A stretch of DNA of 64,000 nucleotides from Streptomyces sp. T12 (lineage in GTDB: Bacteria; Actinomycetota; Actinomycetes; Streptomycetales; Streptomycetaceae): contig NZ_CP117866.1 in NCBI RefSeq assembly GCF_028736035.1, positions 8,597,001-8,661,000 on the forward strand, given 5' to 3'. Below the pieces are notes generated by a model. It saw only the letters and a list, made by a program, of their open reading frames with translations. It was not told the DNA's origin and did not search any database. Position 1 is the first letter of the stretch; the number at the start of each line of letters is the position of its first letter. The translations under genes were made by a program, and so were the position numbers. Of this stretch, positions 45,027-63,399 are shown piece by piece.

Positions 45027-45238
45027 CCCAGCTCCTGCGCCACCGGCCGGCAGAGACTGCCGGCCTCCGTCACAGCCGGGTACCACGGCTGAGACGACCG
45101 GCACCTCCATGCTCCCTCCACCCCGCCGCCTTGCCCAGCCCGGGCCGGCCTGGCGAGCTCTCGTGCACGGGCCGGGTGCCGCCCGGCCCGTGCACATCGG
45201 GCGGACAAGCAGGAACATGGTCGTGTGAGGACGGGACC

Positions 45239-45281
45239 CATGGACGCTGCGTGAGGACCCATGGATGCTCCGCGAGATGAC
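45239..45281 (+). repeat. 21-nt direct repeat at the start of the PAS-SpoIIE-HATPase gene
   Basis: GACCCATGGACGCTGCGTGAG is followed immediately by GACCCATGGATGCTCCGCGAG with three mismatches. Both copies contain an ATGGA start-like sequence, but only the second is in frame with the gene. It looks like a local tandem duplication. Confidence 0.6.
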
Positions 45282-47744: not shown

Positions 47745-49337
47745 TCAGTGGCGGGCCGCCGCGGGAGTCCTCCGTACGCCGGCCACGGCCACCACGGCGC
47801 CGACGACGCACAGCACACCGGCGACCAGCGCGGAGGTGTGCACGCCGTTCATGAAGGCCTGGTGGCTTCCCTCGACGACGGCGGACTCGAGCCGGCCGGG
47901 CATGTCACCGGAGACCGGAGCGACGCCCATGGCCACCGCGTCCTTCGCCTCGCTCAGGCCCTGCGCCGTCTGTGCGGGCACGCCGGCAGAGGTCAGTTCG
48001 CCGGTCAGGGTGGCGCCGACCCGGCTGCTGATGAGGGACACCAGCACGGAGGTGCCGAGCGCGCCGCCGATCTGCAGCGCGGTCGCCTGCAGGCCGCCCG
48101 CCACGCCGCCGTCCTTCACCGGAGCGTTGCCCACGATCGCGTCGGACGAGGAGGACATCACCATGCCGACACCCAGGCCGAGCGCGATGAACGGCGGCCA
48201 CATGGTGGCGTACGACGAGTCCGCGCTCCAGCTGAGCATCGTGAAGCAGGCGACGGCCTGGAGCGCCATGCCCAGCGGCATGGTGAGGCGCGGCCCGAAC
48301 CGGTCCGTGAGCGCCGCGCCCAGCGGGGACGCCACGACCGAGGCGAGGCTCAGCGGCAGGGTGCGCACCCCGGCCTCGACGGGACTGAAGCCGCGCACGT
48401 TCTGCAGGTACAGCATGACGAAGAAGATCACGCCGAGCAGCACGAAGAAGTTCAGCGCGGTGATGACCGTGCCGATGGCCAGCGCCGGGTTGCGGAACAG
48501 GCGCATGGGCAGCAGAGGAGCGGCGACCCGGGTCTCGTACCAGCCGAAGAGCAGCAGGATCGCCACGCCCGCCGCCATCGCGCCCAGCGTGCCGCCCGAA
48601 GTCCAGCCCCACGTCTCGCCCTTGACCACGCCGAACACGACGGCGAGCAGACCGACCGCCAGCAGGACGACGCCGACGATGTCGAACTTCTCGTCCGCGG
48701 CGGCGGTGTTCTTGCTCTGCGGCAGGACGACGGCGCTGAAGACGAGCGCGACGACGCCGATGGGGGCGTTGATGTAGAAGACGGACTCCCAGCTGACGTG
48801 CTGCACGAGCAGGCCGCCCACGATGGGGCCGAGGGCGGTGGAGACCGAGGAGACCATGGCCCAGATGCCGACCGCCATGCCGAACTTCCGCGGCGGGAAC
48901 ACCGCACGCAGCATGCCGAGCGTGTTGGGCATCAGCAGGGCACCGAAGAAGCCCTGGAGCGCGCGGAAGACGATGACGCCCGTGATGGACCCGGAAAGGC
49001 CGATGGCGACGGACGCGGCGGTGAACCCCGCGACGCCGACCAGGTAGAAGGTACGGCGCCCGAACCGGTCGCCGAGCTTGCCGCCGAGGATCAGGGCGGC
49101 GGCGAGGGCCAGCAGGTAGGAGTTGGTGACCCACTGGAGGTCGGCCGTGGAGGCGTTCAGGTCCCGGCCGATCTCGGGGTTGGCGATCGAGACGACCGAG
49201 CCGTCGAGGCCGACCATGAACAGGCCGAAGGCGACGGCGATCAGCGTCAGCCAGGGGTTGGCGCGCGGGCCGCGCGGCTGGTCGGCGGGCGGGGCGGAGG
49301 CGGGCAGGGTGGAGGAGCCGGTGGTCACGGAGGGCAT
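47745..49337 (-). CDS. EmrB/QacA-type (DHA2) MFS drug efflux transporter
   Basis: 530 residues with 14 predicted membrane helices. There is a DHA2 motif D1/C region: LFMVGLDGSVVSIANPEIGRDL near the N-terminus, GGKLGDRFGRRTFYL (motif A), LNTLG-type loops and GIGLPL-like GPIVGGLLVQHVSWESVFYINAPIG (motif C). It exports drugs or other toxic compounds using proton exchange. It lies 46 bp downstream of a marR gene on the same strand, so it is probably autoregulated by that repressor. Its end converges on the PAS-SpoIIE gene. Confidence 0.92.
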   Translation of the reverse strand: MPSVTTGSSTLPASAPPADQPRGPRANPWLTLIAVAFGLFMVGLDGSVVSIANPEIGRDLNASTADLQWVTNSYLLALAAALILGGKLGDRFGRRTFYLVGVAGFTAASVAIGLSGSITGVIVFRALQGFFGALLMPNTLGMLRAVFPPRKFGMAVGIWAMVSSVSTALGPIVGGLLVQHVSWESVFYINAPIGVVALVFSAVVLPQSKNTAAADEKFDIVGVVLLAVGLLAVVFGVVKGETWGWTSGGTLGAMAAGVAILLLFGWYETRVAAPLLPMRLFRNPALAIGTVITALNFFVLLGVIFFVMLYLQNVRGFSPVEAGVRTLPLSLASVVASPLGAALTDRFGPRLTMPLGMALQAVACFTMLSWSADSSYATMWPPFIALGLGVGMVMSSSSDAIVGNAPVKDGGVAGGLQATALQIGGALGTSVLVSLISSRVGATLTGELTSAGVPAQTAQGLSEAKDAVAMGVAPVSGDMPGRLESAVVEGSHQAFMNGVHTSALVAGVLCVVGAVVAVAGVRRTPAAARH

Positions 49338-49383
49338 GGGTGTGCCTGTCCTTCGTCAAGTCTTGGATACCGAGGTGCGCGGA

Positions 49384-49857
49384 TCAGCGCGCGGGGCGGT
49401 GAAGGCGCTCGGTGAGCGCGTTGAGCGCACTGAGCGCGGAACCGAGGGCGTCCAGTTCGCCGTCGGTCAGGGCGCGCAGCGCCCGCGCGAGATGGGCACT
49501 CATCAGGTCCGAGACCTCGGCGAGCCGCTGCCGTGAGGTCGCGGTGAGGTGCAGGTGCGCGACCCGCTTGTCGGCGGGGTCCGGTCGGCGTTCCAGCAGC
49601 CCCTGCTCGGTCATCTGCGTGACCAGCGTGCTGACGTTGTTGGGCTTCATCAGCAATGCCTCGGCCGCTTCCCGCACGGTGACCCCGTCATGGGCCTCGA
49701 CATGCCGCAGCAGCGCGAGCTGGGCCTCGGGGGGCTTGGGGTGCGGGAACTCCTGACCGACCTGCCGGTCGAGGGCCCGGTGCAGCGCGGGCAGGCACGC
49801 CACGAGGACCTCGGCCACGTGGTCGAGGTCCTGGGCGGACGCGCTGTGCTGGGGCAT
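49384..49857 (-). CDS. MarR family transcriptional regulator
   Basis: 157 residues. Helical dimerisation N- and C-termini flank a winged helix with LALLRHVEAHDGVTVREAAEALLMKPNNVSTLVTQMTEQGLLERRPDPADKRV in the recognition region. It should repress the adjacent efflux pump and itself and release DNA when a phenolic or drug ligand binds. A well-formed inverted repeat (49868-49887) covers the start region, and 13-nt tandem repeats extend upstream. Confidence 0.9.
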   Translation of the reverse strand: MPQHSASAQDLDHVAEVLVACLPALHRALDRQVGQEFPHPKPPEAQLALLRHVEAHDGVTVREAAEALLMKPNNVSTLVTQMTEQGLLERRPDPADKRVAHLHLTATSRQRLAEVSDLMSAHLARALRALTDGELDALGSALSALNALTERLHRPAR

Positions 49858-49940: not shown

Positions 49941-50591
49941 TCAGCAGGCCGAAGTGGCCGAGTCCAGCAGCAGCGGGGCACCCGTACGCGCCGCGACGTC
50001 GTCCACGGTGACTCCGGGGGCGGTCTCGACGAGGGCGAGGCCGTCGGGCGTGACGTCGAGGACGCCGAGGTCGGTGATGACGCGGTGCACGCAGCGTTCG
50101 CCGGTGAGCGGCAGGGTGCACTCCGCGACCAGCTTGGGGGAGCCGTCCTTGGCGGTGTGCTCCATCAGCACGACGACGCGACGGGCGCCGTGGACCAGGT
50201 CCATCGCCCCGCCCATGCCTTTGACCATCTTCCCGGGGATCATCCAGTTGGCCAGGTCACCGCGTGCCGACACCTGCATGGCCCCGAGCACGGCGGTGTC
50301 GATGTGCCCGCCGCGGATCATGCCGAAGGACAGGGCCGAGTCGAAGAAGGAGGCGCCCGGCAGGACGGTGACGGTCTCCTTGCCGGCGTTGATGAGGTCC
50401 GGGTCGACCTGGCGGGCGGTCGGGTAGGGGCCGGTGCCGAGGATGCCGTTCTCGGAGTGCAGGACGACATGGACGCCGGGTGGCAGGTGGTCCGGGATGA
50501 GGGTGGGCAGGCCGATGCCGAGGTTCACGTAGGAGCCGTCGGTGAGTTCGGCGGCCGCGCGGGCGGCCATCTGGTCGCGGGTCCAGGTCAT
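49941..50591 (-). CDS. scoB: 3-oxoacid CoA-transferase, subunit B
   Basis: 216 residues from ATG 50591. Family I CoA-transferase beta subunit: [12 protein letters not shown] carries the catalytic glutamate of the SENG motif, and [23 protein letters not shown] and [15 protein letters not shown] are conserved. It transfers CoA from succinyl-CoA to a 3-oxoacid such as 3-oxoadipate or acetoacetate, forming the complex with the alpha subunit. Its start codon overlaps the alpha stop by one base. It is the last gene of the catabolic operon and should activate the ring-cleavage product. Confidence 0.9.
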
Positions 50592-51346
50592 CAGGAACGT
50601 ACCGATACTTTCTCGATGTGCTTGTCGGCTGCCTCTTCGCGCGTCAGCCGCACCACCCGCTGGACGAAGATTCCGGGCAGATGAACCTCGTCGGGGCCGA
50701 GTTCGCCCGGCTCCACCAGCTCCTCCACCTCGGCGACGGTGACCCGCCCGGCCATCGCCGCGAGGGGGTTGAAGTTGGCCGACGCCTTGCGGAAGACCAG
50801 GTTGCCGTGGCGGTCGCCGCGCCAGGCCCGTACGAGCGCGAAGTCCGCGGTGATGGCGTGCTCCAGGACGTGCGGGCGGCCGTCGAAGGCGCGGATCTCC
50901 TTGGCCGGGGACGCCACCGCCACCGAGCCGTCGGACGCGTACCGCCACGGCAGCCCCCCGTTCGCGACCTGGGTGCCGACCCCGGCCGGCGTGAAGAACG
51001 CCGGGATGCCCGCGCCGCCCGCGCGCAGCCGCTCGGCCAGCGTGCCCTGCGGCACGAGCTCCACCTCCAGTTCCCCGGACAGGTACTGGCGGGCGAACTC
51101 CTTGTTCTCGCCCACATAGGAGCCGGTGACCCGGGCGATCCGGCCCGCCGCGAGCAGCACGCCCAGACCCCGACCGTCCACGCCGCAGTTGTTCGACACG
51201 ACCCTCAGGCCGCTCGCGCCCTGTGCGTGCAACGCCTCGACGAGGACCGCCGGGATGCCGCTGAGGCCGAAGCCGCCGACGGCCAGCGACGCGCCGTCCG
51301 GGATGTCGGCGACCGCCTCGGCGGCGCTCTCACAGACCTTGTTCAC
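50591..51346 (-). CDS. scoA: 3-oxoacid CoA-transferase, subunit A
   Basis: 251 residues. The alpha subunit has the glycine-rich CoA-binding region [21 protein letters not shown], then [70 protein letters not shown] and [31 protein letters not shown]. All landmarks of this family are intact. TGATG couples it to the beta subunit, and it is 25 bp after the SDR gene on the same transcript. Confidence 0.92.
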
Positions 51347-51371
51347 ACAGGTGCCTTTCTGGGGTGACGGC

Positions 51372-52115
51372 TCACGAACGCAGCGCGTCCGAGAGGGACT
51401 TGACGCCGCCGTGTGCGGTGAGACCTCCGTCTACGGGGATCTCGGCGCCGGTGATGAAGGACGCCTCGGCGCAGAGCAGGAACACCACGAGCGGGGTGAT
51501 CTCGTCCACGGTGCCGGTGCGGCCGAGCGGCGTCTCGCGGATGTTCGCCTCGCGGAAGGCGGGGGCCGCGGAGGCGGTCATCTCGGTCTCGATGTAGCCG
51601 GGGTGGATGGTGTTGACGCGGATGCCGCGCGGGCCGAGTTCGGTCGCCGCCGCCTTCGACAGGCCCCGCAGCGCCCACTTGCTGGCCGTGTAGGCGATCG
51701 GGTAGTGGCCGGTGAGTGCGGCCGTCGAGCCGACGTTGACGATGGACGAGCCCGGCGCCATCAACGGGGCGAGGTGCTGGATGCCGAGCAGCGGCCCGGT
51801 GACGTTGACGGCGTGGACACGGTCGAAGTCCTCCGGGCGTACGTCGCCGAGGCGGGCGCGCCAGGTGATGCCCGCGTTGTTGACCAGGCCGTGGACACCG
51901 CCGTACGACTCCCGTAGCTCGGCGGCGAGTTCGGACCACTCCTTGTCGCTGGTGACGTCGAGGCGGCGACAGCCGGGTGCGTCCGTCACGTCGGTGGCGA
52001 TCACCCGGGCGCCCTCGCGGGTCAGTGCCTCGGCCTCGGCGGCGCCCTGGCCGCGTGCCGCGCCCGTGACCACGACGACCTTGCCGAGGAGCCTTTTGGG
52101 ACGCAGGTCGCTCAC
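51372..52115 (-). CDS. Short-chain dehydrogenase/reductase
   Basis: 247 residues of the classical SDR family. NAD(P)-binding TGAARGQG near the N-terminus, NNAGI at about residue 82, the catalytic Ser in IVNVGSTAALTG, and Tyr/Lys in YTASK are all present, followed by PLGRTGTVDEI, common in the branch acting on small ring or hydroxy acids. In the operon it could oxidise or reduce a ring-cleavage intermediate. Its start overlaps the end of the FAH-fold gene by four bases. Confidence 0.9.
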   Translation of the reverse strand: MSDLRPKRLLGKVVVVTGAARGQGAAEAEALTREGARVIATDVTDAPGCRRLDVTSDKEWSELAAELRESYGGVHGLVNNAGITWRARLGDVRPEDFDRVHAVNVTGPLLGIQHLAPLMAPGSSIVNVGSTAALTGHYPIAYTASKWALRGLSKAAATELGPRGIRVNTIHPGYIETEMTASAAPAFREANIRETPLGRTGTVDEITPLVVFLLCAEASFITGAEIPVDGGLTAHGGVKSLSDALRS

Positions 52116-53038
52116 GGCCGCTCCCGGGGCCGACGTCGAGCGACCGGCACCGGCACCGGATCAGGGCCCGCCACCACGGTGTTGGACACGGAGCCGATGC
52201 CCTCGACGGTGAGCGTGACGGTGTCGCCGGGCTTCAGCGGCGCCGGGTCCCGCCGGCCGCGCACGCCCCACAGCTCGGCGAGGCAGCCGCCGTTGCCGCA
52301 GGTCCCGGAGCCGAGCACGTCTCCGGGACGTACCCACGTGCCGCGCGAGGCGTAGGCGACCATCTCCTCGAAGGTCCAGCTCATGTTGGACAGCAGGTCC
52401 TTGCCGACCACCTCGCCGTTGATCTCGGCGGTCAGCGCCAGCCGCAGGAAACCGTCGGTGTCCCGGTAGGGCTCCAGCTCGTCGGCGGTGACGAGGTAGG
52501 GGCCGAGGGTGGTGGCGGTGTCCTTGCCCTTGCAGGGGCCCAGGCCCACCTTCATCTCCGCCGACTGCAGGTCGCGGGCGGACCAGTCGTTGAAGATCGT
52601 GTAGCCGACGATGTGGTCGCGGGCCTGCTCCGGGGTGAGGTCGCGGCCTTCTCGGCCGATCACGGCGGCGACCTCCAGCTCGAAGTCGAGCACGGCCGAC
52701 CCCGGCGGCATCGGGATGTCGTCGTGCGGGCCGTACACCGCGTAGGGGTTGGTGAAGTAGAAGGTCGGGGCGGCGTACCACCGCTCCGGCACCCCGGCGG
52801 CCCCGTCCACGGAGCGCCGGACGCCTTCGACGTGCTCCTCGAAGGTGACGAAGTCCCGGACGGTCGGCGGCTCCAGCGGCGGCAGCAGGCGTACGTCGGA
52901 CAGCGGGACGGCGTCCCCTACAGGGCGGGTGCCGGCGGCGTTCAGGGGGGAGGTGCCGTCCGGCAGAGCCCGGACGGCGGTGCCCTCCACGACTCCGCAC
53001 CGACGGCGTCCCTCGTACAGGTAAGTGGCGATGCGCAA
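52112..53038 (-). CDS. Fumarylacetoacetate hydrolase family protein (second copy)
   Basis: 308 residues. An N-terminal 70-residue cap precedes the FAH fold. FELEVAAVIGREG carries the metal-binding Glu residues; DWSARDLQSAEMKVGLGPCKGKDTATTLGPYLV and NMSWTFEEMVAYASRGTWVRPGDVLGSGTCGNGG follow. The family hydrolyses or decarboxylates 2-oxo acids from aromatic cleavage (fumarylpyruvate, 2-hydroxymuconate and similar). It lies 13 bp after the dioxygenase gene and overlaps the SDR by four bases. Confidence 0.9.
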   Translation of the reverse strand: MRIATYLYEGRRRCGVVEGTAVRALPDGTSPLNAAGTRPVGDAVPLSDVRLLPPLEPPTVRDFVTFEEHVEGVRRSVDGAAGVPERWYAAPTFYFTNPYAVYGPHDDIPMPPGSAVLDFELEVAAVIGREGRDLTPEQARDHIVGYTIFNDWSARDLQSAEMKVGLGPCKGKDTATTLGPYLVTADELEPYRDTDGFLRLALTAEINGEVVGKDLLSNMSWTFEEMVAYASRGTWVRPGDVLGSGTCGNGGCLAELWGVRGRRDPAPLKPGDTVTLTVEGIGSVSNTVVAGPDPVPVPVARRRPRERP

Positions 53039-53051
53039 TGGTCGGCGCCCC

Positions 53052-53990
53052 TTACACCGGCGGGGCGACGAAGACGCCGCGGTCGACGTCGTTGAACGAC
53101 TCCTTGGTGACCAGTTCGTTCATGGGGTTGGCGGTGCCCCACTGGTCGGTGACCTCGGGCTTGGAGAAGTCGTAGACGTGGGGGTGCCAGGTGTCCTCGT
53201 CGAGGAGTTCCAGCTCGGTGGTGTACTCGACGGTGTTGCCGTGCGGGTCGAGGAAGTAGGTGAAGGTGTTGTCGCCCGCCATGTGCCGGCCCGGCCCCCA
53301 GATCTTCTTGGCGCCGGCGCGCATCACCCGGCCGGAGCCGCGCATGTACTCGTCGATGCCGCGCATCTCGAAGGAGATGTGGTGCAAGGAGGTGTGCGGG
53401 CCCTTGGCGATGGCCATCGAGTGGTGCTGGTTGCTGATCCGCATGAAGTGCATGACGTCGCCGATGTGCGGATGGCCGAGCGTGTCGGAGAGGCGGAAGC
53501 CGAGGTGGGTCTCGTACCACTCGCGGGTCTTGTCCAGGTCCGGCGAGTTGAGGACGACGTGCGACAGCTTGACCGGGATCGACTCCTTCTCCTCGATCTT
53601 GCGGTGCCGGCGCACCTCGACGTCCGCGGAGACCTCGATGGTGCGGCCGTCGACGTCGAAGAAGCGGAAGCCGTACCCGCCTCCGGGGGTGTCGACCTTC
53701 CCCGGCTGGGAGATCAACTGCACGCCCTGGGAGAGGAGTTGCTCGGCGAGGGTGTCCACGTCCGCCGCGCTCCCGGCGCCGTAGGAGACCAGGTCGAGGC
53801 GCTTCTCGTCGGCCTTGCGCAGCCGGACGACGTACTGCTCGGGGCTGCCCTCGGCGGCCAGGAAGGAGATGCCGGAGTCCTCGGCGACCTTGGTCAGGCC
53901 CCAGACGCCGGCGTAGAAGTCGAGCTGCTTGTCGTAGTCGGGTACGGCGAGGTCGACGTGGCGCAGGTGGGTGAGCAGGCGGTTGCTCAT
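53052..53990 (-). CDS. Extradiol ring-cleavage dioxygenase (VOC family)
   Basis: 312 residues in two vicinal-oxygen-chelate domains. In the C-terminal domain, His144 (LSHVVLNSPD), His203 or His204 (TSLHHISFEM) and Glu255 (NTVEYTTEL) are the iron ligands of type I extradiol dioxygenases, as in catechol 2,3-dioxygenase. It should open a 1,2-dihydroxy aromatic ring next to a hydroxyl. It is between the amidohydrolase and the second FAH-fold gene, each gap 13 bp. The exact ring substrate is unknown. Confidence 0.9.
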   Translation of the reverse strand: MSNRLLTHLRHVDLAVPDYDKQLDFYAGVWGLTKVAEDSGISFLAAEGSPEQYVVRLRKADEKRLDLVSYGAGSAADVDTLAEQLLSQGVQLISQPGKVDTPGGGYGFRFFDVDGRTIEVSADVEVRRHRKIEEKESIPVKLSHVVLNSPDLDKTREWYETHLGFRLSDTLGHPHIGDVMHFMRISNQHHSMAIAKGPHTSLHHISFEMRGIDEYMRGSGRVMRAGAKKIWGPGRHMAGDNTFTYFLDPHGNTVEYTTELELLDEDTWHPHVYDFSKPEVTDQWGTANPMNELVTKESFNDVDRGVFVAPPV

Positions 53991-54003
53991 GGGGGGTTCC
54001 TTT

Positions 54004-55032
54004 TCAGGCGAGGTTGAGCAGGGCGGCGGCGTTGCCGCCCCGCACCGCGTGGAAGTCGTGGTCGGGCAGGCCCGCTGCGCGCAGGGCGGCCAGCGGGTCG
54101 TCGGTGCCCATGTCGAAGGGGAAGTCGGAGCCGAGCAGGACGCGGTCGGCGCCGACGACGCGGATCAGCTCCCGCAGGACGTGCGGGTCGTGGACGAGCG
54201 AGTCGAAGTACAGCTGCTTCAGGTAGCTGCTCGGCTCCCGTGAGCAGGCCCGGGCGTCGGGGCGGGCCCGCCAGGCGTGGTCGGAGCGGCCGATGTGGGT
54301 GGGGAGGTAGCCGCCGCCGTGCGCGGCGAGCAGCTTCAGGCCCGGATGGCGGTCCAGGGCGCCGGAGAAGATCAGGTGGGAGAGGGCGACGGCGTTCTCG
54401 GTGGGCTGGCCGACGGTGTTGGACAGGTACCACTGGTCCAGGCGCTGGTCGAGGGTGCAGCCGAACGGGTGCAGGAAGACGACGGCGCCGGTCGCCTCCG
54501 CGCGTGCCCAGAAGGGCGCGAGCCGCGGGTCGGACAGCTCCACTTCCCGTGCGCCGCCCGGCCCCGGGGCGTGGGAGGAGATCTCCACGCCCCTCAGCCC
54601 CTGGTCCAGCGCGTGGTCGAGCAGGGTGACGGCGAGGTCGGGGTGCTGGAGGGGAACCATGCCCAGGCCATACAGCCGGTCGGGGGCCTTGGCGCAGTGC
54701 GCGGCGGTGCCCTCGTTGGCCAACCGGCAGATCCTGTCGGCCAGTTGGGCATCGGCCCAGTAGTGGTAGTGGCCCGGCGAGGGGCTTACCAGCTGCACGT
54801 CGACATCGGCCTCGTCCATCGTCGCCAGGCGCACGTCGGCGTCCGTCAGCTTCGGCACCCGCGCGCCCACCATGGGCCCGTTCACCGCGAGGGCCGCGGA
54901 GCCGTTGCGGCGGGCGTCGAGGTTACGGGCCTCGGCGAGGCCGGGGTGACCGGCGACGGCTTCCTCGATCTCCGGGAGCAGGAGGTGGGCGTGGACGTCG
55001 ATGGTCGGCGCGGAGGATGCGGTGGCGGTCAC
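54004..55032 (-). CDS. Amidohydrolase family decarboxylase/hydrolase (ACMSD-like)
   Basis: 342 residues from GTG 55032. Amidohydrolase-2 fold: metal-binding HXH in IDVHAHLLLPE, His in VVFLHPFGCTL, His in KLLAAHGGGYLP and Asp in VLLGSDFPFD. The layout matches ACMS decarboxylase and gamma-resorcylate decarboxylase, which remove CO2 from aromatic or muconate-semialdehyde acids without oxygen. The start overlaps the end of the monooxygenase gene by four bases (GTGA). In the pathway it could decarboxylate a ring-cleavage product or an aromatic acid. Confidence 0.85.
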   Translation of the reverse strand: MTATASSAPTIDVHAHLLLPEIEEAVAGHPGLAEARNLDARRNGSAALAVNGPMVGARVPKLTDADVRLATMDEADVDVQLVSPSPGHYHYWADAQLADRICRLANEGTAAHCAKAPDRLYGLGMVPLQHPDLAVTLLDHALDQGLRGVEISSHAPGPGGAREVELSDPRLAPFWARAEATGAVVFLHPFGCTLDQRLDQWYLSNTVGQPTENAVALSHLIFSGALDRHPGLKLLAAHGGGYLPTHIGRSDHAWRARPDARACSREPSSYLKQLYFDSLVHDPHVLRELIRVVGADRVLLGSDFPFDMGTDDPLAALRAAGLPDHDFHAVRGGNAAALLNLA

Positions 55033-56165
55033 GGGCGCTCCTTGAGGAGGTTCATGGTGCGGCCGACCAGCCCGGCGATGTCGGCGTCGCGCACGCCGTC
55101 CAGCTGCCACCGGCCGATCTGCACGGACGCCTCCACGACGGTGCGCACCCGGGGGATGCGGCGGTCGTGGTAGGCCTGCAACAGCTCGTCGTCCCAGTCC
55201 CGTCCGCCGGTCAGCAGCTCGGCGAGGACGGAGGCGTCCTCCAGGGACATGGCCGCGCCCTGGGCCAGGGTGGGCGGGCAGCAGTGGGCGGCGTCGCCGA
55301 CGAGCACGACCCGGCCCCGGTGCCAGGAGTCCTCGACCAGCAGACGGTCGAACCAGGTGTAGTTGACCTTCTTCGGGTCGGTGATGTGCTCGGTGATCTC
55401 CGGCCAGACGCCGCCGTAGCCCTGTGTCAGGCGGCGCATCTCGTCGGCGTAGGCGGCCGGGTCGATGGAGGCGCGGTCGCGGCAGGCTTCGACGACGTAC
55501 GCGTAGATGGTGTTCTCGCTGGTGGGGCAGTAGCCGGCGATGTAGGCGGGGCCGCCGTAGGCGAGGTCGGTGCGCGTCACGCTCGCGGGCCGTGGGGCGG
55601 CGATGCGCCAGATGGCCATGCCGGTGGGCTCGGGTTTGTCGGTGATGCCGATCGCGGCGCGGGTGGCGGAGTTGAGGCCGTCGGCGCCGATCACGAGGTC
55701 GTAGCGGCCTTCGCTGCCGTCGCTGAAGCGCACCGAGACGCCGTCGGCGTCCTGCTCCAGGGTCTCGGCGGTGGTGCCGAGACGCACACCGGCGCCGGAG
55801 GCGCGGACGGTGTCGATGAGGATCTGCTGGAGCTGGGGGCGCTGCATGCCGAGGGTGGCGGGCAGGTCCTCCCCACCGGTCTGGATGTCCTCGGCGACGA
55901 ACAGGACGGTGCCGTCCGGGGCGGTCACTCCCAGCGAGCCGAAGGCGTACCCGGAGGCTTCCACCTGTTCCCACACGCCCAGTTCGCGCAGGACCCGCAG
56001 GGCATTGCCCTGGAGGGTGATGCCGGAGCCGGTGGTGGCGTTCCAGTCGGGCCGGGCCTCGATCAGGTCGACGGCGATGCCGGCGCGGCGCAGCAGGATG
56101 GTGACGGCGTTGCCGGATGCGCCCCCGCCTATGACGAGGACGGAACGGGTGGGGCGGTCAGCCAT
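55029..56165 (-). CDS. FAD-dependent aromatic monooxygenase
   Basis: 378 residues from ATG 56165 (GGAGG about 10 nt upstream). Class A flavoprotein hydroxylase: GGGASGNAV in the N-terminal FAD-binding loop, YDLVIGADGLNSATRAAIG (DG motif) and GRVVLVGDAAHCCPPTLAQGAAMSLEDA (GD motif) are intact. It should add a hydroxyl group to an aromatic acid, preparing the diol for the extradiol dioxygenase. It follows the cyclase gene after 175 bp that include an attenuator-like hairpin, and it is coupled to the amidohydrolase by overlap. Confidence 0.9.
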   Translation of the reverse strand: MADRPTRSVLVIGGGASGNAVTILLRRAGIAVDLIEARPDWNATTGSGITLQGNALRVLRELGVWEQVEASGYAFGSLGVTAPDGTVLFVAEDIQTGGEDLPATLGMQRPQLQQILIDTVRASGAGVRLGTTAETLEQDADGVSVRFSDGSEGRYDLVIGADGLNSATRAAIGITDKPEPTGMAIWRIAAPRPASVTRTDLAYGGPAYIAGYCPTSENTIYAYVVEACRDRASIDPAAYADEMRRLTQGYGGVWPEITEHITDPKKVNYTWFDRLLVEDSWHRGRVVLVGDAAHCCPPTLAQGAAMSLEDASVLAELLTGGRDWDDELLQAYHDRRIPRVRTVVEASVQIGRWQLDGVRDADIAGLVGRTMNLLKERP

Positions 56166-56289
56166 GTCGGGGATACCTCCCGATTTCGGGCCGCGCGGCT
56201 TCGGGCGGCGGGGGTGCGGCTCGCCCGCTGGGAGCGCGGGCCAGAGGTGGGGACGGGGGTGGTGGGGACGGGGTGGGACGGGGCGCGGG

Positions 56290-56328
56290 CCGGATGCGCC
56301 GCTGCTGTCCGGGGAAGGGCGCATCCGG
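56290..56328 (-). terminator. Hairpin in the operon between cyclase and monooxygenase genes
   Basis: CCGGATGCGCC (56290-56300) pairs perfectly with GGCGCATCCGG (56318-56328), an 11-bp stem with a 17-nt loop, just after the cyclase stop codon. It could reduce transcription of the seven genes further down. Confidence 0.55.
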
Positions 56329-56340
56329 CAGCTGTGTGGG

Positions 56341-57303
56341 CTATTTGACGGCGACGGGGTTGACGGGGGAGCCGACGGCTCCGGTGATGGGCAAGGGCGC
56401 GGCGGTCAGCCAGAACTCGTACACGCCGTCCGCCGCGCAGTCCTCGGCGAGCGACTCCGGGTCCCACATCTCGCCGATCAGCAGCCCCATGTTGGGGATG
56501 ACGACCTGGTGCAACGGCTGGAAGGCGTTTTCGAACTCGTTGGGCCGCACCTCGAACCCCCACGTGTCGGTGGCGACCGCGGCGATCTCGGTACGGTGCA
56601 GCCAGCCCGCCGTGGTGAACGACAGCCCCGGCGCGGCCCCGCCGGCGTACTCGCCCCAGCCGTCGCGGCGGACCCGGGCCAGCTGCCCGGTCCGTACGAC
56701 GACGATGTCGCCGCGTCCGACGGACACCCCGTGGGCTTCGGCGGTCGCGGCCAGATGCTCCTCGGTGACGGCGAACCCGTCGGGCAACTCACCGCCCTCC
56801 CCGACGACCCGGCCCACGTCCAGCAGCACGCCACGCCCGGCGACGTACGGCGCCATGTGCTCGATGCCGGTGACGAGGTCGCCGTCGGAGGTGACGACCT
56901 TCTCGGCCGGCCGCCCGTTCCAGGCGTTGCCGTGGTCGAAGATGTGCCCGAGCCCGTCCCACTGCGTGGAGCACTGCAACGGCATCGCGATCACGTCGTC
57001 GGCGCCGCCGATGCCGTGCGGGAAGCCCTGGTTGCCCAGGGCCGCGTCGGTGCCGGTGTCGAGCATCGTGTGCACGGGGTTGGTGCGCCGGCGCCAGCCC
57101 TTCTGCGGCCCGTTCATGTCGAACCGCTGCGACAGCGAGAAGCTGACGCCCCGCCGTACGAGGGCGGCGCCCTCCCGGCGCTTGGCCTCGTCGAGGAAGT
57201 TCAGCGTGCCGAGCACGTCGTCCTCGCCCCAGCGCCCCCAGTTGGAGTACGCCTTGGCGGCCTCGGCGATCGCGCCCTCCGGGTCCTGCCGGTCCAGGCT
57301 CAT
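56341..57303 (-). CDS. Cyclase/kynurenine-formamidase-like hydrolase
   Basis: 320 residues. PF04199-type fold: the N-terminal WGRWGEDDVLGTLNFL, the metal-site region TQWDGLGHIFDHGNAWNG (with the family pattern of His/Asp residues), and VLLDVGR and VVVRTGQ strands. Known members hydrolyse N-formylkynurenine or act on cyclic intermediates. In this operon it may open a ring or remove a formyl group from a catabolic intermediate. Its start overlaps the first FAH-fold gene by four bases. Confidence 0.85.
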   Translation of the reverse strand: MSLDRQDPEGAIAEAAKAYSNWGRWGEDDVLGTLNFLDEAKRREGAALVRRGVSFSLSQRFDMNGPQKGWRRRTNPVHTMLDTGTDAALGNQGFPHGIGGADDVIAMPLQCSTQWDGLGHIFDHGNAWNGRPAEKVVTSDGDLVTGIEHMAPYVAGRGVLLDVGRVVGEGGELPDGFAVTEEHLAATAEAHGVSVGRGDIVVVRTGQLARVRRDGWGEYAGGAAPGLSFTTAGWLHRTEIAAVATDTWGFEVRPNEFENAFQPLHQVVIPNMGLLIGEMWDPESLAEDCAADGVYEFWLTAAPLPITGAVGSPVNPVAVK

Positions 57304-58280
57304 GAGGTCTCCTCCACACAGCGCGTGCGCTGCACGCCCAGCCCGGTGACCGACCCCTCCATGACGTCGCCGTCGCGCAGCAGCCGTCCCCAGTGGATGC
57401 CGTTGCCGGCGGGGCTGCCGGTCAACACGAGGTCTCCGGGCAGGAGTCGGGAGGTCTGCGAGATGTACGACACCAGCCGCGCGATGCCGAAGAGCATGTC
57501 CTTGGTGGACTCGTCCTGCATGGTCTCGCCGTTGAGCTTGAGGGTGACCCGCAGATCACCGGGATCGGCGATCGACTCGGCCGGCACGAGCCACGGGCCG
57601 AGCGGGGTGAAGCCCGGGGCGTTCTTGCAGCGCAGCCAGTCGGTGCCGATGGCCTTCATGTCCCGGCGGAAGACGGTGGCGCGATCGGTGAGGTCGTTGG
57701 CGATCGTGTACCCGGCGACGTACTCCATGGCCTCCTCGACGGAGACCCGGTGCGCGGGCTTGGCGATGACGGCGGCCAACTCCAGCTCCCAGTCCGGCTG
57801 TTCGGCCCAGGAGGGGAGTACGACGTCGTCGTACGGTCCGGCGATGGTGCTCGGCAGGCCGATGAAGACGTACGGCAGGTCCTCGGCGGCCCGCCGGTCC
57901 ATGACGGCGGCGATCTCGGCCCGCGCCTCCTCGACCGTGCGCGGGTCGTCGGGGGAGCGGTGGGCGACCTCCAGGTCGATCACGTGCTGCCGGTAGTTGG
58001 CGCCGGACTGGAAGATCTGCCGGGGCTCGACCGGGGCGTGCACCCGCAGGCCCGCCAGCGGCTGCCACTCCCGGGCGTCGTCGTCCGCCAGGGCGCGCAG
58101 CAGGGGGAGCGTGTCCTCCCACCGTTCCAGTACGGCACGTACGTCGGACGGTGCCGAGTCCAGGGCGCTGCCCAGGTCGAGCACCCGGTCCTCGGCCAGG
58201 AGACCGGGGAACGGCTCCCCGTCCGGGGTGGAGAACGTGCCGAGCGCGAACGGGCCGGCAGGTTGCGCGAGCGTTGCCAT
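57300..58280 (-). CDS. Fumarylacetoacetate hydrolase family protein (first copy)
   Basis: 326 residues from ATG 58280 (AGGAGG 7 nt upstream, the best ribosome site of the operon). FAH fold with WELELAAVIAKPAHRV and the GYTIANDLTDRATVFRRDMKAIGTDWLRCKN signature, ending in PGDLVLTGSPAGNGIHWGRLLRDGDVM. It is first in the nine-gene operon, divergent from lysR. The two FAH-family copies may act at different steps. Confidence 0.9.
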   Translation of the reverse strand: MATLAQPAGPFALGTFSTPDGEPFPGLLAEDRVLDLGSALDSAPSDVRAVLERWEDTLPLLRALADDDAREWQPLAGLRVHAPVEPRQIFQSGANYRQHVIDLEVAHRSPDDPRTVEEARAEIAAVMDRRAAEDLPYVFIGLPSTIAGPYDDVVLPSWAEQPDWELELAAVIAKPAHRVSVEEAMEYVAGYTIANDLTDRATVFRRDMKAIGTDWLRCKNAPGFTPLGPWLVPAESIADPGDLRVTLKLNGETMQDESTKDMLFGIARLVSYISQTSRLLPGDLVLTGSPAGNGIHWGRLLRDGDVMEGSVTGLGVQRTRCVEETS

Positions 58281-58346
58281 CAGATTTCCTCCTGCTGGGT
58301 TGCGGTCTACTCTGACCTCGATCGGCGAATCACGGAAATCAATCTT

Positions 58347-58374
58347 GTGGATGCGCCGAATCCACGACATGGAT
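58347..58374. promoter_or_regulatory. LysR-type operator candidate in the divergent region
   Basis: GTGGAT (58347-58352), ATCCAC (58360-58365) and TGGAT (58370-58374) form two overlapping inverted repeats. TCCACGACATGGA contains a T-N11-A core. The block lies between the first FAH-fold gene and lysR, about 27 bp before the lysR start. Confidence 0.6.
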
Positions 58375-58400
58375 GGCTTTCGCTTGCTAGGTGGTGCCCG

Positions 58401-59354
58401 GTGAACCTGTCCCGACTCGACCTCAACCTGGTCGTTGCTCTGCGCGCGCTGCTGGAGGAGCGCAACGTCACCCGGGCCGGCGAGCGCATCGGCCTCAGCC
58501 AGCCCGCCATGAGCGCGGCGCTGTCCCGCCTACGCCGGCATTTCGACGACGAATTGCTCGCCCGGACCGGGAACGCCTACGAACTGACCCCGCTCGGCGT
58601 CGCGTTGCGGGACCGCAGCGCCACCGCGTGCGACCTGCTGGAGCGCGTCTTCGCCAGCCAGGCCGAGTTCGACCCGACCGCCGAGGCCCGCGAGTTCACC
58701 CTGCTCGCCTCGGACTACGGCGCGGCCGTGTTCGGCGCCGCGCTCGCCCGCGCCGTGCACCACGAGGCGCCCGGCATCCGGCTCACCTTCCAGCACCCGG
58801 CGCCCTCCGTCGAGGAGAACACCGCCGCCCTGCTGAGCACCGTCGACGGACTGCTGATGCCGCACGGCGTCATCGACGGATTCCCCGCCGTCGACCTCTA
58901 CCAGGACCGCTGGCTGTGCATGATCGCCGACGACCACCCCGAGGTGGGCGACGCACTCACCCTCGACCACCTGGCCCGCCTGCCCTGGGCCGTCTACCAG
59001 CGGCCCTACGACGCCCCGGCCGCCCGCCAGTTGAGCATGCTCGGCATCAGCCCTCATGTGGAGGTCTCCGTCCAGACCTTCCAACTGCTGCCGTTCATGA
59101 TCGAGGGCACCCGTCGGGTCGCGATGATCCAGGAGCGGCTCGCCCGCGGGGCGGTGCGGTCGGCGGCGGTGCGTGTTCTGCCCTGCCCTTTCGAGGCCGT
59201 GCCGGTGCAGGTGGCGCTGTGGTGGCACCCGCTGCACGCGCAGGACGCGGCACACATCTGGCTGCGGCAGAAGGCGGCGGAGGTGGGGGCGTCGTTGCTG
59301 GAGGAGAACGGATGGAGGAGACCTGATGGAGGAGAGCTGATGGAAGAGAACTGA
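58401..59354 (+). CDS. LysR family transcriptional regulator
   Basis: 317 residues from GTG 58401 (AGGTGG upstream). N-terminal winged helix (RLDLNLVVALRALLEERNVTRAGERIGLSQPAMSAALSRLRRHF) of the NodD/LinR type; the effector-binding domain follows. It is divergent from the catabolic operon and probably activates it when a pathway compound binds. Its last codons run into 14-nt tandem repeats (59311-59366), which shift the frame with each copy, so the C-terminus could vary between strains. Confidence 0.9.
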   Translation: MNLSRLDLNLVVALRALLEERNVTRAGERIGLSQPAMSAALSRLRRHFDDELLARTGNAYELTPLGVALRDRSATACDLLERVFASQAEFDPTAEAREFTLLASDYGAAVFGAALARAVHHEAPGIRLTFQHPAPSVEENTAALLSTVDGLLMPHGVIDGFPAVDLYQDRWLCMIADDHPEVGDALTLDHLARLPWAVYQRPYDAPAARQLSMLGISPHVEVSVQTFQLLPFMIEGTRRVAMIQERLARGAVRSAAVRVLPCPFEAVPVQVALWWHPLHAQDAAHIWLRQKAAEVGASLLEENGWRRPDGGELMEEN

Positions 59355-59366
59355 TGGAAGAGAACT
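59311..59366 (+). repeat. 14-nt tandem repeat at the end of lysR
   Basis: Four units of the GATGGAGGAGACCT / GATGGAAGAGAACT type. The unit is not a multiple of three and each carries ATG, TGA and GGAG-like sequence. Changes in copy number would change the C-terminus or stop position of LysR. Confidence 0.75.
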
Positions 59367-59385
59367 GATGGGAGGCCGAGGTGAC

Positions 59386-60675
59386 CTACTGCGCGTGCCA
59401 CGACGGGTTGTCGTTCGGCTGCGGGCTACGTCGTGCCGGTGCGGCCGCCCACAACCCCGCAGCGACCAGCGCCGCAGCCACCCCCAGCATCCCCACCGCC
59501 CCCGCGAGGCTCCCGACCGCCGACTCACCGGCGAGCAGGACCAGCGGGCAGACGAACTCACCCCCGAAGAAGGCGGCCATCCACAGCCCCGTCCCGCGGC
59601 CGCGGTCCTCGAACGCCAGCCGGGACATGGCACTCGTCAGCAACGCGGGCAGCAGCATCCCCGTACCCAGGCAGTTGATCACCGCTCCGACCACCAGCAG
59701 CGGCGTGTTGCCCGCCAGGAACATCACCCCGAAACCGGCGGCGCAGACCGCGAAGACGGCGGGCAGCATGGGGTCCGGGGCGCGCTTCAGCCGGGCGAAG
59801 GTGATCGCGCCGCCCACGGTCGCGGCACTCGCGATCGCGGTGGCCAGGCCGATCACACCGGAGCTCGCCACGCCGAGGTCGTCGAGCAGGTACGCCATCT
59901 CCACCGGGACGGTGTAGAAGACCATCGCCCCGAAGAAGGTGAGGGCACAGATGCCCGCCAACTGCCGCCAGGGGAAGGGCCGGTGGACCTTGGGGCCCGC
60001 TGCCTCGGCCGGGGTCTCGTCGCCGGCCGCGTGGGCCGGTCGGGCCGCCGGGCCGGGCAGGGCGGAGGCCATCAGGGGAGCGAGGGCCAGGCTCACGGCG
60101 TAGATCCAGAAGGGCACGCGCCAGCCTGCCGACCCGGCGGCCCCGCCGATCACGAAGAAGACGGTGGCCGAGGCGGAGGCGCACATGGTCTGCAGGGCGA
60201 GGTATTTCACCCGCCGGTGTCCGCTGTAGTAGTCGCCGATCAGGGTGGTGCAGCAGGTCATGATCGCGGCCTCGGCGACACCGACCAGGGCGCGGCTCGC
60301 GATGACGGCGCCCAGCGAGTCCAGACAGAGCGGTGCCGTGCCGAACACGGCGTACAGCACGGTCGTGATGATCAGCAGGCGCTTGCGGCCCAGCCGGTCC
60401 ACGATCACCCCGGCGAACGGCGCCAGCAGCGCCAGCGACAGCGCCGGAACGGTCAGCGCGAGCGGGACGAGCGCCTTGGCGCCCGGGGTCGAGGCGAAGT
60501 GGTCCTGCATCTTCGGCAGCACCGGGGCGATCAGCACGGCCCCCAGGATCGGCAGACAGCTGCCTGCCATCAGCAGAGTCACCCGCAACAGATGGGCCGG
60601 GCCGGAAACGGGCACGGGCGACGCGGCGGCGTCATCGACATCGACCGCGGTGGGAGACGGGACGGAACCGGGCAT
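59386..60675 (-). CDS. MFS transporter, probably uptake of the catabolic substrate
   Basis: 429 residues from ATG 60675 (GGAG 7 nt upstream; the frame is open 22 codons further). 12 predicted membrane helices; motif A-like GVIVDRLGRKRLLI after helix 2; LIGDYYSGHRRVKYLALQTM in the central loop. It resembles DHA1-type carriers. It converges with lysR across 31 bp and so is not in the operon, but its place at the edge of the pathway genes makes import of an aromatic acid or export of an intermediate plausible. Confidence 0.8.
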   Translation of the reverse strand: MPGSVPSPTAVDVDDAAASPVPVSGPAHLLRVTLLMAGSCLPILGAVLIAPVLPKMQDHFASTPGAKALVPLALTVPALSLALLAPFAGVIVDRLGRKRLLIITTVLYAVFGTAPLCLDSLGAVIASRALVGVAEAAIMTCCTTLIGDYYSGHRRVKYLALQTMCASASATVFFVIGGAAGSAGWRVPFWIYAVSLALAPLMASALPGPAARPAHAAGDETPAEAAGPKVHRPFPWRQLAGICALTFFGAMVFYTVPVEMAYLLDDLGVASSGVIGLATAIASAATVGGAITFARLKRAPDPMLPAVFAVCAAGFGVMFLAGNTPLLVVGAVINCLGTGMLLPALLTSAMSRLAFEDRGRGTGLWMAAFFGGEFVCPLVLLAGESAVGSLAGAVGMLGVAAALVAAGLWAAAPARRSPQPNDNPSWHAQ

Positions 60676-61600: not shown

Positions 61601-63190
61601 TCACCCGTGATCCTTCTTCGGGTGCTTGGAGTGGTCGGTCTTCTTGGAGTGGTCGGGCTTCTTGGGGTCCGGCTTCTTGGGGTGGTCCGGCTTCTTGGGG
61701 TGTGCGGGGTAGGCGGGCTTGCTCGGGAGCTTGGGCTTGGCCGGGTAGGCCGGCTTGGCCGGGAGCTTGGGCTTGGCCGGAAGGGCTGGCTTCGCGGGGA
61801 GTGCGGGCTTGGCCGGAAGGGCTGGCTTCGCGGGGAGTGCGGGCTTGGCGGGGAGTGCTGGCTTGGCCGGGAGTGCGGGCTTGGCCGGGAGTGCGGGCTT
61901 GGCCGGAAGGGCTGGCTTCGCGGGGAGTGCGGGCTTGGCGGGGAGTGCGGGCTTGGCCGGGAGTGCTGGCTTGGCCGGGAGTGCGGGCTTGGCCGGAAGG
62001 GCTGGCTTCGCGGGGAGTGCGGGCTTGGCGGGGAGTGCGGGCTTGGCCGGGAGTGCGGGCTTCACCGGAAGGGCGGGCTTGGCGGGAAGGGCTGGCTTGG
62101 CCGGGAGTGCTGGCTTGGCCGGGAGTGCGGGCTTGGCCGGAAGGGCTGGCTTCGCCGGGAGTGCGGGCTTGGCGGGAAGGGCTGGCTTGGCCGGGAGCTT
62201 GGGCTTGGCCGGGAGCGCTGGCTTGGCCGGGAGTGCGGGCTTGGCCGGGAGCTTGGGCTTGGCCGGAAGGGCTGGCTTCGCGGGGAGCGCGGGCTTCGCG
62301 GGGAGTGCGGGCTTCGCGGGGAGTGCGGGCTTGGCCGGGAGTGCTGGCTTGGCCGGGAGTGCTGGCTTCACCGGAAGGGCGGGCTTGGCGGGAAGGGCTG
62401 GCTTGGCCGGGAGCTTGGGCTTGGCCGGGAGCGCTGGCTTGGCCGGGAGTGCGGGCTTGGCCGGGAGCTTGGGCTTGGCCGGAAGGGCTGGCTTCGCGGG
62501 GAGTGCGGGCTTGGCGGGGAGTGCGGGCTTGGCCGGGAGTGCGGGCTTCACCGGAAGGGCTGGCTTGGCCGGGAGCTTGGGCTTGGCCGGAAGGGCTGGC
62601 TTCGCGGGGAGCGCGGGCTTGGCCGGGAGCGCGGGCTTCACCGGAAGGGCTGGCTTGGCCGGGAGCTTGGGCTTGGCCGGAAGGGCTGGCTTCGCGGGGA
62701 GCGCGGGCTTGGCCGGGAGCGCGGGCTTGGTCGGGAGCGCGGGCTTGGTCGGAAGCTTCGGCTTGACCGGGTGGACGGGCTTGGCCGGGAGCTCGGGCTT
62801 GACCGGGTGGACGGGGTGCACCGGGTGGGCGGGCTTGGCCGGCAGTACGGGCTTGACCGGGTGTACCGGGAGCTCGGGCTTGACCGGGTGCTCGGGCTTC
62901 ACCGGGTATACCGGGTGCTCGGGCTTGACCGGGTATACCGGGTGCTCGGGCTTGACCGGGTGTACCGGGTGCTCGGGTTTGACCGGGTGCTCGGGCTTGA
63001 CCGGGTGTACCGGGTGGACCGGCTTGCTCCCGTGTGCCGGGTGGGCGGGCTTCGCCGGGTACGGCGGATGCGGGGTCTTGTGGTCGTCGTTGGCGTAGGC
63101 GGTTCCCGCGCTCGTCAGCGCGGCTGCGGCGAGCACGGCAGCCGTGGCGGCCGACGCCAGAACGGATCGCCATCTCGGCGATGTCGTCAT
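61601..63190 (-). CDS. Secreted KPALPA-repeat protein
   Basis: 529 residues from ATG 63190 (GAGGAG upstream; a GTG at 63199 is the alternative). Signal peptide SVLASAATAAVLAAAALTSAGTAYA. The N-terminal mature part has Pro/His/Lys repeats (HPVKPEHPV), then roughly 60 hexapeptides of the type KPALPA or KPKLPA run to about residue 490, and the end is Lys/His/Pro rich. The protein is strongly basic and should form an extended polyproline-type rod in the cell wall. The 18-nt DNA unit is recent-looking, with higher-order blocks. Function is not known. Confidence 0.8.
   Translation of the reverse strand: MTTSPRWRSVLASAATAAVLAAAALTSAGTAYANDDHKTPHPPYPAKPAHPAHGSKPVHPVHPVKPEHPVKPEHPVHPVKPEHPVYPVKPEHPVYPVKPEHPVKPELPVHPVKPVLPAKPAHPVHPVHPVKPELPAKPVHPVKPKLPTKPALPTKPALPAKPALPAKPALPAKPKLPAKPALPVKPALPAKPALPAKPALPAKPKLPAKPALPVKPALPAKPALPAKPALPAKPALPAKPKLPAKPALPAKPALPAKPKLPAKPALPAKPALPVKPALPAKPALPAKPALPAKPALPAKPALPAKPALPAKPKLPAKPALPAKPALPAKPKLPAKPALPAKPALPAKPALPAKPALPAKPALPAKPALPAKPALPVKPALPAKPALPAKPALPAKPALPAKPALPAKPALPAKPALPAKPALPAKPALPAKPALPAKPALPAKPALPAKPALPAKPALPAKPALPAKPALPAKPKLPAKPAYPAKPKLPSKPAYPAHPKKPDHPKKPDPKKPDHSKKTDHSKHPKKDHG
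61755..62760 (-). repeat. 18-nt coding tandem repeats
   Basis: Units of the type GGGAGTGCGGGCTTGGCC (plus-strand view), with higher-order blocks ending GGAAGGGCTGGCTTCGC. The multiple of 3 keeps the frame and also keeps several plus-strand frames open. Confidence 0.85.
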
Positions 63191-63399
63191 CTTCTCCACT
63201 CTCCTCGACTTGGTTCAGGGCCTCGTGACGGTTGGTCAGCACCAAGAGCCGGACAGTGGATGGATAGGAAATGGGTAGATATGAATAACGCCTCGACGGT
63301 CATTAGCCACCGGATGGTGTAGCGCGGCACACCAGTTGGCCCGTGCGGTGGGCCAACTGCCGTGAGACGACAACTGCCCGAAACGACCCACCGGTGTCC

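Follow-up and report, generated by a model that had tools for sequence, protein, structure and literature searches.

In a limited literature search, which leaves room for published actinobacterial flavonoid operons, bacterial degradation of the flavonoid A-ring was found described from Proteobacteria. In Variovorax, daidzein is converted to 8-hydroxydaidzein, which is ring-cleaved to X2 and then converted to X3, a 2-hydroxy-4-pyranone in which the B-ring is retained; the portion of PMC11069340 consulted names no gene for the step from X2 to X3. For the regulator FdeR, T-N11-A boxes are reported between the LysR gene and the fde operon (PMC10799723, in excerpt), and the HcdABC enzymes carry out comparable chemistry on a 2,3,5-triol (PMC6222606, in excerpt). 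Here, these systems are compared with a run of nine genes on the minus strand of a 64,000-nucleotide stretch of the Streptomyces sp. T12 genome (the whole stretch is termed the window, and positions are those of the window). Read from 58280 to 49941, the run encodes a fumarylacetoacetate hydrolase (FAH)-fold hydrolase (FAH1), a cyclase-family hydrolase (CYC), a class A FAD hydroxylase (FMO), an amidohydrolase (AMH), an extradiol dioxygenase of the VOC superfamily (VOC), a second FAH-fold hydrolase (FAH2), a short-chain dehydrogenase (SDR), and the two subunits of a 3-oxoacid CoA-transferase (CoAT_A and CoAT_B, together CoAT).

The nine-gene operon is real, and it is a widely conserved catabolic operon of actinobacteria. 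On balance it probably serves the breakdown of the A-ring of a flavonoid-type benzo-γ-pyrone, most likely a 5,7-dihydroxy flavone or flavanone, with the substrate and every reaction predicted from sequence. In the proposed route, FMO would hydroxylate C8, and VOC would cut the 7,8-diol between C8 and C8a to yield a lactone that bears an acylpyruvate chain, the side chain that cleavage of a 5-hydroxy A-ring would be expected to give. FAH1, being nearest to a 2,4-diketo-acid hydrolase, could release pyruvate from this side chain, and AMH, nearest to ACMSD, would remove CO2 from the acid left, the pair leaving an X3-like pyranone. CYC would then open the lactone, SDR would oxidize an alcohol (a step needed for flavanones, not for flavones), FAH2 would split a 3,5-diketo acid into a benzoate and acetoacetate, and CoAT would activate the acetoacetate by CoA transfer. 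The formulas close from naringenin to 4-hydroxybenzoate, pyruvate, CO2, and acetoacetate, which makes the route feasible without showing that it is the one used.

All nine genes, together with the adjoining genes for a LysR-type regulator and a major facilitator superfamily (MFS) transporter, belong to the families that a preliminary description made from the DNA letters had named, as judged by Pfam and NCBIfam, and its view of a single aromatic catabolic operon stands, with no close characterized relative from which to assign a substrate. Gene starts were chosen by ribosome-binding sites and conservation. Neighboring genes overlap by four bases at FAH1/CYC, FMO/AMH, and FAH2/SDR and by one base at CoAT_A/CoAT_B, and gaps of 13, 13, and 25 bp separate AMH from VOC, VOC from FAH2, and SDR from CoAT_A. 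Seven of the eight junctions are thus as tight as had been stated for most of them (overlaps of 1–4 bases or gaps of at most 25 bp), the sole wide one being the 175 bp between CYC and FMO, where the FMO start at 56165 is preceded by GGGAGG. The start of FAH1 is most likely 58280 rather than the 58370 of the longer open reading frame (ORF); AGGAGG lies upstream of it, and the GAGGA of this site is kept in all 16 aligned LysR/FAH1 gaps, the window included.

The search for conserved neighborhoods that had been suggested was carried out on 24 distinct actinobacterial loci besides the window (loci are designated by L numbers). Gene presence was scored by tblastn because a simple gene caller missed overlapping genes in this GC-rich DNA. 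Most of these loci, L126–L145, were fetched for an AMH match, so that AMH, but not the other core genes, is present there by choice. The full core FAH1-CYC-FMO-AMH-VOC-FAH2, with VOC at least 76% identical, is found in 16 of the 24 (L019, L040, L041, and L126–L138), FAH2 in all 16 and SDR, at 50% identity or more, in seven. In L042, L139, and L140 the remaining core is kept and an unlike VOC (23–25%) lies upstream. CYC-AMH-FAH2 persist in L141, L142, and L144, where FMO, VOC, or both lie at a distance or are absent; L143 combines AMH-CYC-FAH2 with a 41% FAH1 but lacks the window-type VOC, and L145 has a 39% AMH only. Among 296 genomes of the class, AMH (E 1e-60 or better) occurs in 19 and CYC (E 1e-100 or better) in 22, and CYC, which carries the motif TQWDGLGH and has an uncharacterized protein as its best PDB match (5ibz, E 3.3e-55), is 68–92% identical across 28 other CYC loci. 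The best PDB match of FAH2 is 6iym (E 2.3e-22).

The 11.46-Mb host genome contains the operon a second time, as L019, and part of it a third time, as L143. L019 (G000:C1:514000-533900) is without SDR, and the similarity to CoA-transferase there breaks up across several reading frames (at about 14.1–15.4 kb), as though the copy were decaying. In L143 (G000:C1:589000-608900), AMH-CYC-FAH2 are accompanied by a LigAB dioxygenase, a LigM/DesA-like O-demethylase, a C-terminal P450 fragment, and DoxX.

The hydroxylase provides one link to flavonoid pathways. Comparison with the fde and ifc systems was made through a set of fde-like loci, the best 80 of 396 confirmed proteobacterial loci retrieved with the VOC of a Massilia cluster, 79 of which exceed 9 kb. 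They are called fde-like because FMO, a glyoxalase-type VOC, and an α/β hydrolase pair up in them as in the Variovorax ifc cluster (PMC11069340, in part) and because relatives of naringenin genes are reported, in the portion of PMC8515041 consulted, in P. thivervalensis SC5, the species of L118. The window FMO scores 465.6 bits with NF005313 (PRK06847), against a cut-off of 372 that is also passed by all eight other FMOs tested (L118, L105, L039, three Sphingomonadales clusters, and two actinobacterial sisters). The same cut-off is passed by 13 matches in 148 genomes of the class; 12 belong to clusters of the operon's kind, and one (G192) is alone. A quick tree search on 73 of 150–151 FMO stretches or rows, with Shimodaira–Hasegawa-like approximate likelihood ratio test (SH-aLRT) support only, places 26 actinobacterial FMOs in one clade (SH-aLRT 100), itself part of a 57-row assembly with 22 fde-like and four sphingomonad rows (SH-aLRT 99). 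The assembly is separate from 16 of the 19 other class A FMOs; the outgroup rows L086_905, L105_210, and L121_812 fall within it, and the branches of L143 and L045 are long. Of the 79 fde-like loci, 68 contain a match of at least 250 residues to the window FMO, at 32–41% identity. Pairs of FMO and VOC occur on sphingomonad plasmids as well. A second unit, with an MhpA-like hydroxylase, a FAH, a VOC, and an amidohydrolase, is seen at L039:10991-15361 and L018:7943-12449 and recurs in Massilia and on Rhizobium plasmids.

The ring-cleaving enzyme varies. His144, His204, and Glu255 of VOC, residues to which the preliminary description had pointed, are conserved in 97% or more of 33 aligned rows, a set that includes the window, and correspond to His153, His214, and Glu265, the iron ligands of catechol 2,3-dioxygenase (1mpy). 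VOC carries the 2-His-1-Glu site of type I extradiol dioxygenases, and its assignment to the VOC rather than the cupin type holds (PF00903). Across the related clusters, five types of enzyme occupy this step: the window-type VOC, the FdeC-type VOC, catechol-2,3-dioxygenase-like enzymes (L042, L139, L140, and L185), BphC-like enzymes (L180, L190, and L191), and LigAB, beside the L143 trunk. In Streptomyces angustmyceticus (L045:8832-10945), an FMO and a VOC of the window family lie near a type I polyketide synthase, perhaps a biosynthetic use.

Downstream of ring cleavage, FAH1 and AMH travel together. The best PDB match of FAH1 is an L-2,4-diketo-3-deoxyrhamnonate hydrolase (8gsr, E 4.3e-41), and it also matches the acylpyruvase FAHD1 (E 2.4e-24); its best NCBIfam match, NF053535, scores 159.7 bits, below the cut-off of 500. 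Glu165, Glu167, and Asp196 are kept in 30 rows and presumably form the E-x-E...D metal site of the FAH fold; by these residues and its nearest structure, FAH1 fits the acylpyruvate or 2,4-diketo-acid hydrolases, of which it is a candidate member. The solved structures nearest to AMH are those of ACMSD. His14, His16, His188, His238, and Asp303 of AMH are conserved in 97% or more of 31 rows, and Arg249 is kept as well; by comparison with ACMSD, these residues would serve as metal ligands and as a substrate-binding arginine.

In the sister clusters L176, L177, L181, L184, L185, and L186, FMO, CYC, and SDR are found with an α/β hydrolase in place of AMH. Among 29 CYC loci, 21 have AMH only (within 6 kb), six have the α/β hydrolase only, two have neither, and none has both, an exclusion with a chance figure of 5.9e-5 that treats the loci as independent, although they are not. 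With looser thresholds, FAH1 occurs in 23 of 25 AMH-bearing actinobacterial loci versus one of seven with the α/β hydrolase (L144 and L181 are overlapping parts of one contig, and a single FAH1 gene is common to both). The α/β hydrolase of L177 is 47–51% identical to those of L039, L046, L118, L105, L017, and L016, and 23% identical to that of L043; 71 of the 79 fde-like loci contain one that is 47–52% identical to it. AMH is present in only four of the 79 (L061, L074, L103, and L125), and FAH1 in three, all among those four. The betaproteobacterial loci L125 and L103 carry AMH (50–51%) near FAH1 (51%). L125, from Janthinobacterium, combines FAH1, AMH, an FdeC-type VOC, FMO, a PF04199 cyclase, and a FAH without the α/β hydrolase; L103, from Massilia yuzhufengensis, has the same gene set plus the α/β hydrolase. 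In L061, AMH, FAH1, and the α/β hydrolase are scattered across 17 kb, and in L189 the α/β hydrolase is joined by a 47% CYC and by a distant AMH of 29% identity. Strict exclusion everywhere is ruled out by L103 and L061, which carry both. It is possible, though short of probable, that FAH1 and AMH constitute a portable module that removes the cleaved A-ring (as pyruvate, then CO2), filling for 5-hydroxy flavonoids a chain-removal step like that from X2 to X3; the module would replace the α/β hydrolase in actinobacteria, the ring-cleaving enzyme would be freely exchanged, and the route would end in benzoates and acetoacetate.

The proposed route should yield a benzoate, and genes for using benzoates lie near several of the clusters. 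A homologue of 4-hydroxybenzoate 3-monooxygenase (40%) is 84 bp from CYC in L181, and another (48%) is just within 10 kb in L186. Beside the operon in L040, L134, and L177 lie 3-hydroxybenzoate 6-monooxygenase and gentisate dioxygenase homologues that fall short of the curated cut-offs. L143 adjoins benzoate-CoA ligase, boxB, and boxC, all over curated cut-offs, and no boxB (E 1e-60) was found in the 24 other genomes searched. In 25 genomes, five of 47 benzoate-type genes fall within 10 kb of a CYC locus (0.17 expected), an excess that is partly post hoc, since the gentisate and box genes had come to light beforehand and only the 4-hydroxybenzoate monooxygenase was sought after the prediction.

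Several observations weigh against a flavonoid A-ring operon. The excess of benzoate genes could reflect a general clustering of aromatic genes. The NF005313 subfamily is broader than these clusters, with a Bacillus subtilis member over the cut-off among 14 control genomes and the solitary member in G192, and even the best match per fde-like locus is only 32–41% identical to the window FMO. The VOC tree, in which long branches leave the deep joins unsure, sets nine FdeC-type rows apart from the window VOC by a branch with SH-aLRT 100, which ruled out an FdeC-like assignment; identity to the VOCs of the compared fde-like loci is 29–35% over partial length, and the window VOC family is also found without this FMO. 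No window-type CYC (E 1e-12), and no VOC of at least 38% identity, occurs in any of the 79 fde-like loci, which are so labeled from their gene content and a statement in one paper, not from FdeE, FdeC, or Ifc sequences; a list of fde genes was not found in the excerpts of PMC4440368, PMC6548992, PMC3093359, and PMC11303751. AMH and the α/β hydrolase are not strict alternatives, given that they coexist in L103 and L061 and that a 29% AMH accompanies the hydrolase in L189. A search of the host genome at E 1e-60 gave no match to the 385-residue α/β hydrolase. The AMH alignment, loose in that region, contains no conserved arginine where the first substrate-binding arginine of ACMSD would fall. Many syntenic loci lack SDR and CoAT, and no cupin domain was found by Pfam in the nine operon proteins. 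Finally, the portion of PMC11069340 consulted reports that Variovorax still degrades daidzein after disruption of the α/β hydrolase and that IfcA homologues occur in Proteobacteria only.

Other pathways could account for parts of this gene set. In an orsellinate or alkylresorcinol pathway, AMH would decarboxylate a resorcylic acid to a resorcinol, FMO would form a 2,3,5-triol, VOC would cleave it to a trioxo acid, FAH would yield pyruvate and a 3-oxo acid, and CoAT would activate the latter. Resorcylate decarboxylases do belong to the AMH family, Corynebacterium occultum has the same VOC family beside a FAH and an acetoacetate-CoA ligase, and the triol chemistry of HcdABC (excerpt of PMC6222606) offers a parallel; AMH, however, matches human ACMSD (E 4.8e-52) far better than γ-resorcylate decarboxylase (4.4e-25), no clear role is left for CYC, the second FAH, and SDR, and the exchange with the fde-type α/β hydrolase goes unexplained, so that this pathway is unlikely. 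The same chemistry on another benzo-γ-pyrone, such as a xanthone, chromone, or isoflavone, would cut identical bonds. Arthrobacter breaks xanthone down via a coumarin to salicylate and gentisate, and the gentisate-pathway homologues beside L040, L134, and L177 would suit such a substrate, but the 4-hydroxybenzoate 3-monooxygenase homologues and benzoyl-CoA genes beside other clusters suit flavones or flavanones better, and we regard this alternative, too, as unlikely.

The pra pathway, in which a hydroxybenzoate undergoes meta-cleavage and the ring-cleavage product is then decarboxylated, provides another model, with the ACMSD-like AMH acting on the carboxylated product and FMO and VOC generic for such a route. 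It is improbable here, as the aldehyde dehydrogenase and tautomerase families are absent from the nine proteins (Pfam), FAH1 resembles 2,4-diketo-acid hydrolases, and hydroxybenzoate hydroxylases match FMO far below its NF005313 score. Least credible, and highly improbable, is catabolism of kynurenine, xanthurenate, or a quinoline acid. The co-occurrence of a formamidase-like cyclase-family protein, FMO, a dioxygenase, and an ACMSD-like protein had suggested the order of kynurenine catabolism, but this likeness proves superficial: FMO belongs to NF005313 with the fde-like hydroxylases, kynurenine monooxygenase structures match it at about 64 bits, under the 84 bits of the 6-hydroxynicotinate and tropone monooxygenases, and FAH1 accompanies AMH in two phyla. 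Tryptophan dioxygenase and kynureninase, already noted as missing, and a cupin dioxygenase were not found among the operon proteins scanned, the rest of the genome not having been searched.

Positions of the operon genes and adjoining features in the window
Feature	Position	Strand	Assignment
FAH1	57300..58280	-	PF01557; FAH-fold hydrolase, proposed acylpyruvate (2,4-diketo acid) hydrolase; start corrected from 58370
CYC	56341..57303	-	PF04199, E 4.9e-21; cyclase-family hydrolase, proposed lactone hydrolase
FMO	55029..56165	-	NF005313 (PRK06847); class A FAD hydroxylase, proposed 8-hydroxylase of flavonoid-type A-ring
AMH	54004..55032	-	PF04909 (Amidohydro_2); ACMSD-like amidohydrolase, proposed decarboxylase of acid left by FAH1
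VOC	53052..53990	-	PF00903; type I extradiol dioxygenase (predicted)
FAH2	52112..53038	-	PF01557, PF10370; FAH-fold hydrolase, proposed β-diketone hydrolase giving benzoate and acetoacetate
SDR	51372..52115	-	PF13561, E 2e-58; short-chain dehydrogenase, proposed oxidation of side-chain alcohol
CoAT_A	50591..51346	-	3-oxoacid CoA-transferase subunit A; TIGR02429, 244.5 bits (cut-off 128.5)
CoAT_B	49941..50591	-	3-oxoacid CoA-transferase subunit B; TIGR02428, 335.8 bits (cut-off 243.55)
LysR-type regulator	58401..59354	+	NCBIfam LysR-family matches, all below cut-off; divergent from FAH1
Operator-like inverted repeat ATCCA-N5-TGGAT	58360..58374	.	LysR/FAH1 gap; fits T-N11-A; putative function
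Second conserved block GATTGATTTCCGTGATT	58328..58344	.	LysR/FAH1 gap
MFS transporter	59386..60675	-	PF07690; proposed uptake, separate transcript

The LysR gene is divergent from FAH1 in most syntenic loci too, and the inverted repeat ATCCA-N5-TGGAT is perfect in seven of the 16 aligned LysR/FAH1 gaps, the window included. The MFS transporter gene is convergent with the LysR gene and so adjoins the operon outside its run of genes; its product is 47% identical over 377 residues to the MFS transporter of the P. thivervalensis locus L118. Adjoining the 3′ end of the operon (47745-49857, minus strand) are a long MFS transporter (530 residues) and a MarR-like regulator (157 residues). Two PAS/GAF/PP2C-phosphatase-like sensors are encoded by overlapping ORFs, one at 45261-47732 (plus strand) and one in the C-terminal part of the ORF at 42960-47369 (minus strand). 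At 61601-63199 (minus strand) is a 532-residue protein composed mostly of Lys-Pro-Ala-Leu repeats (LPAKPA). The families of these neighbors were assigned by eye.

If the flavonoid assignment is correct, A-ring flavonoid catabolism would extend to Streptomyces and other soil actinobacteria, through a modular pathway in which the hydroxylase and trunk are kept and the ring-cleaving enzyme is swapped. FAH1 and AMH would then be a named candidate pair for a step like the isoflavone conversion of X2 to X3, which is without an assigned gene in the consulted part of PMC11069340, and the operon would be a source of C8-hydroxylases and ring-opening enzymes.

Like the fde operon of Herbaspirillum seropedicae SmR1, which acts on naringenin, the window operon would direct a class A FMO and then a dioxygenase to the A-ring, and it has a LysR gene with a T-N11-A box, a loose pattern predicted here, in the gap. 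Unlike the fde operon, as judged through the fde-like loci, it has a VOC of another clade, AMH and FAH1 replacing the α/β hydrolase, a CoA-transferase, and an actinobacterial host. The ifc cluster of Variovorax sp. V35, which acts on isoflavones, supplies the model chemistry of 8-hydroxylation by an FMO and A-ring cleavage leaving a pyranone; it differs in having the cupins IfcD1/D2 and the α/β hydrolase (PMC11069340, in part). The plasmid cluster of Novosphingobium sp. EMRT-2 (L013) shares VOC (47%), FMO (40%), FAH1 (47%), AMH (45%), and a second FAH (30%), but it has an annotated MBL-fold hydrolase and is without a window-type CYC and CoAT. In hcdABC of Pseudomonas mandelii 7HK4, an FMO, a VOC-superfamily extradiol dioxygenase, and a FAH-family hydrolase likewise act in series, but these are three genes acting on 3-(2,4-dihydroxyphenyl)propionate (PMC6222606, in excerpt). 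ACMSD of the kynurenine pathway gives the nearest solved structures for AMH; in a loose alignment, AMH shows no conserved arginine at the first substrate-binding position, and the operon is without kynurenine genes. The outcome that the preliminary description said would refute it, both enzymes inside clades of a well-described pathway with the same gene order, is half borne out: FMO joins the A-ring flavonoid assembly, and VOC stands outside the FdeC-type clade, with a different gene set and order. On this evidence, the operon would operate in the manner of an fde or ifc pathway, but it is not filed as a member because it shows none of the FdeC-type VOC, α/β hydrolase, and cupin features. It is related to the A-ring flavonoid pathways through its hydroxylase and through downstream parts that are exchanged among clusters, and it differs from them in the clade of its dioxygenase and in its set of downstream enzymes.

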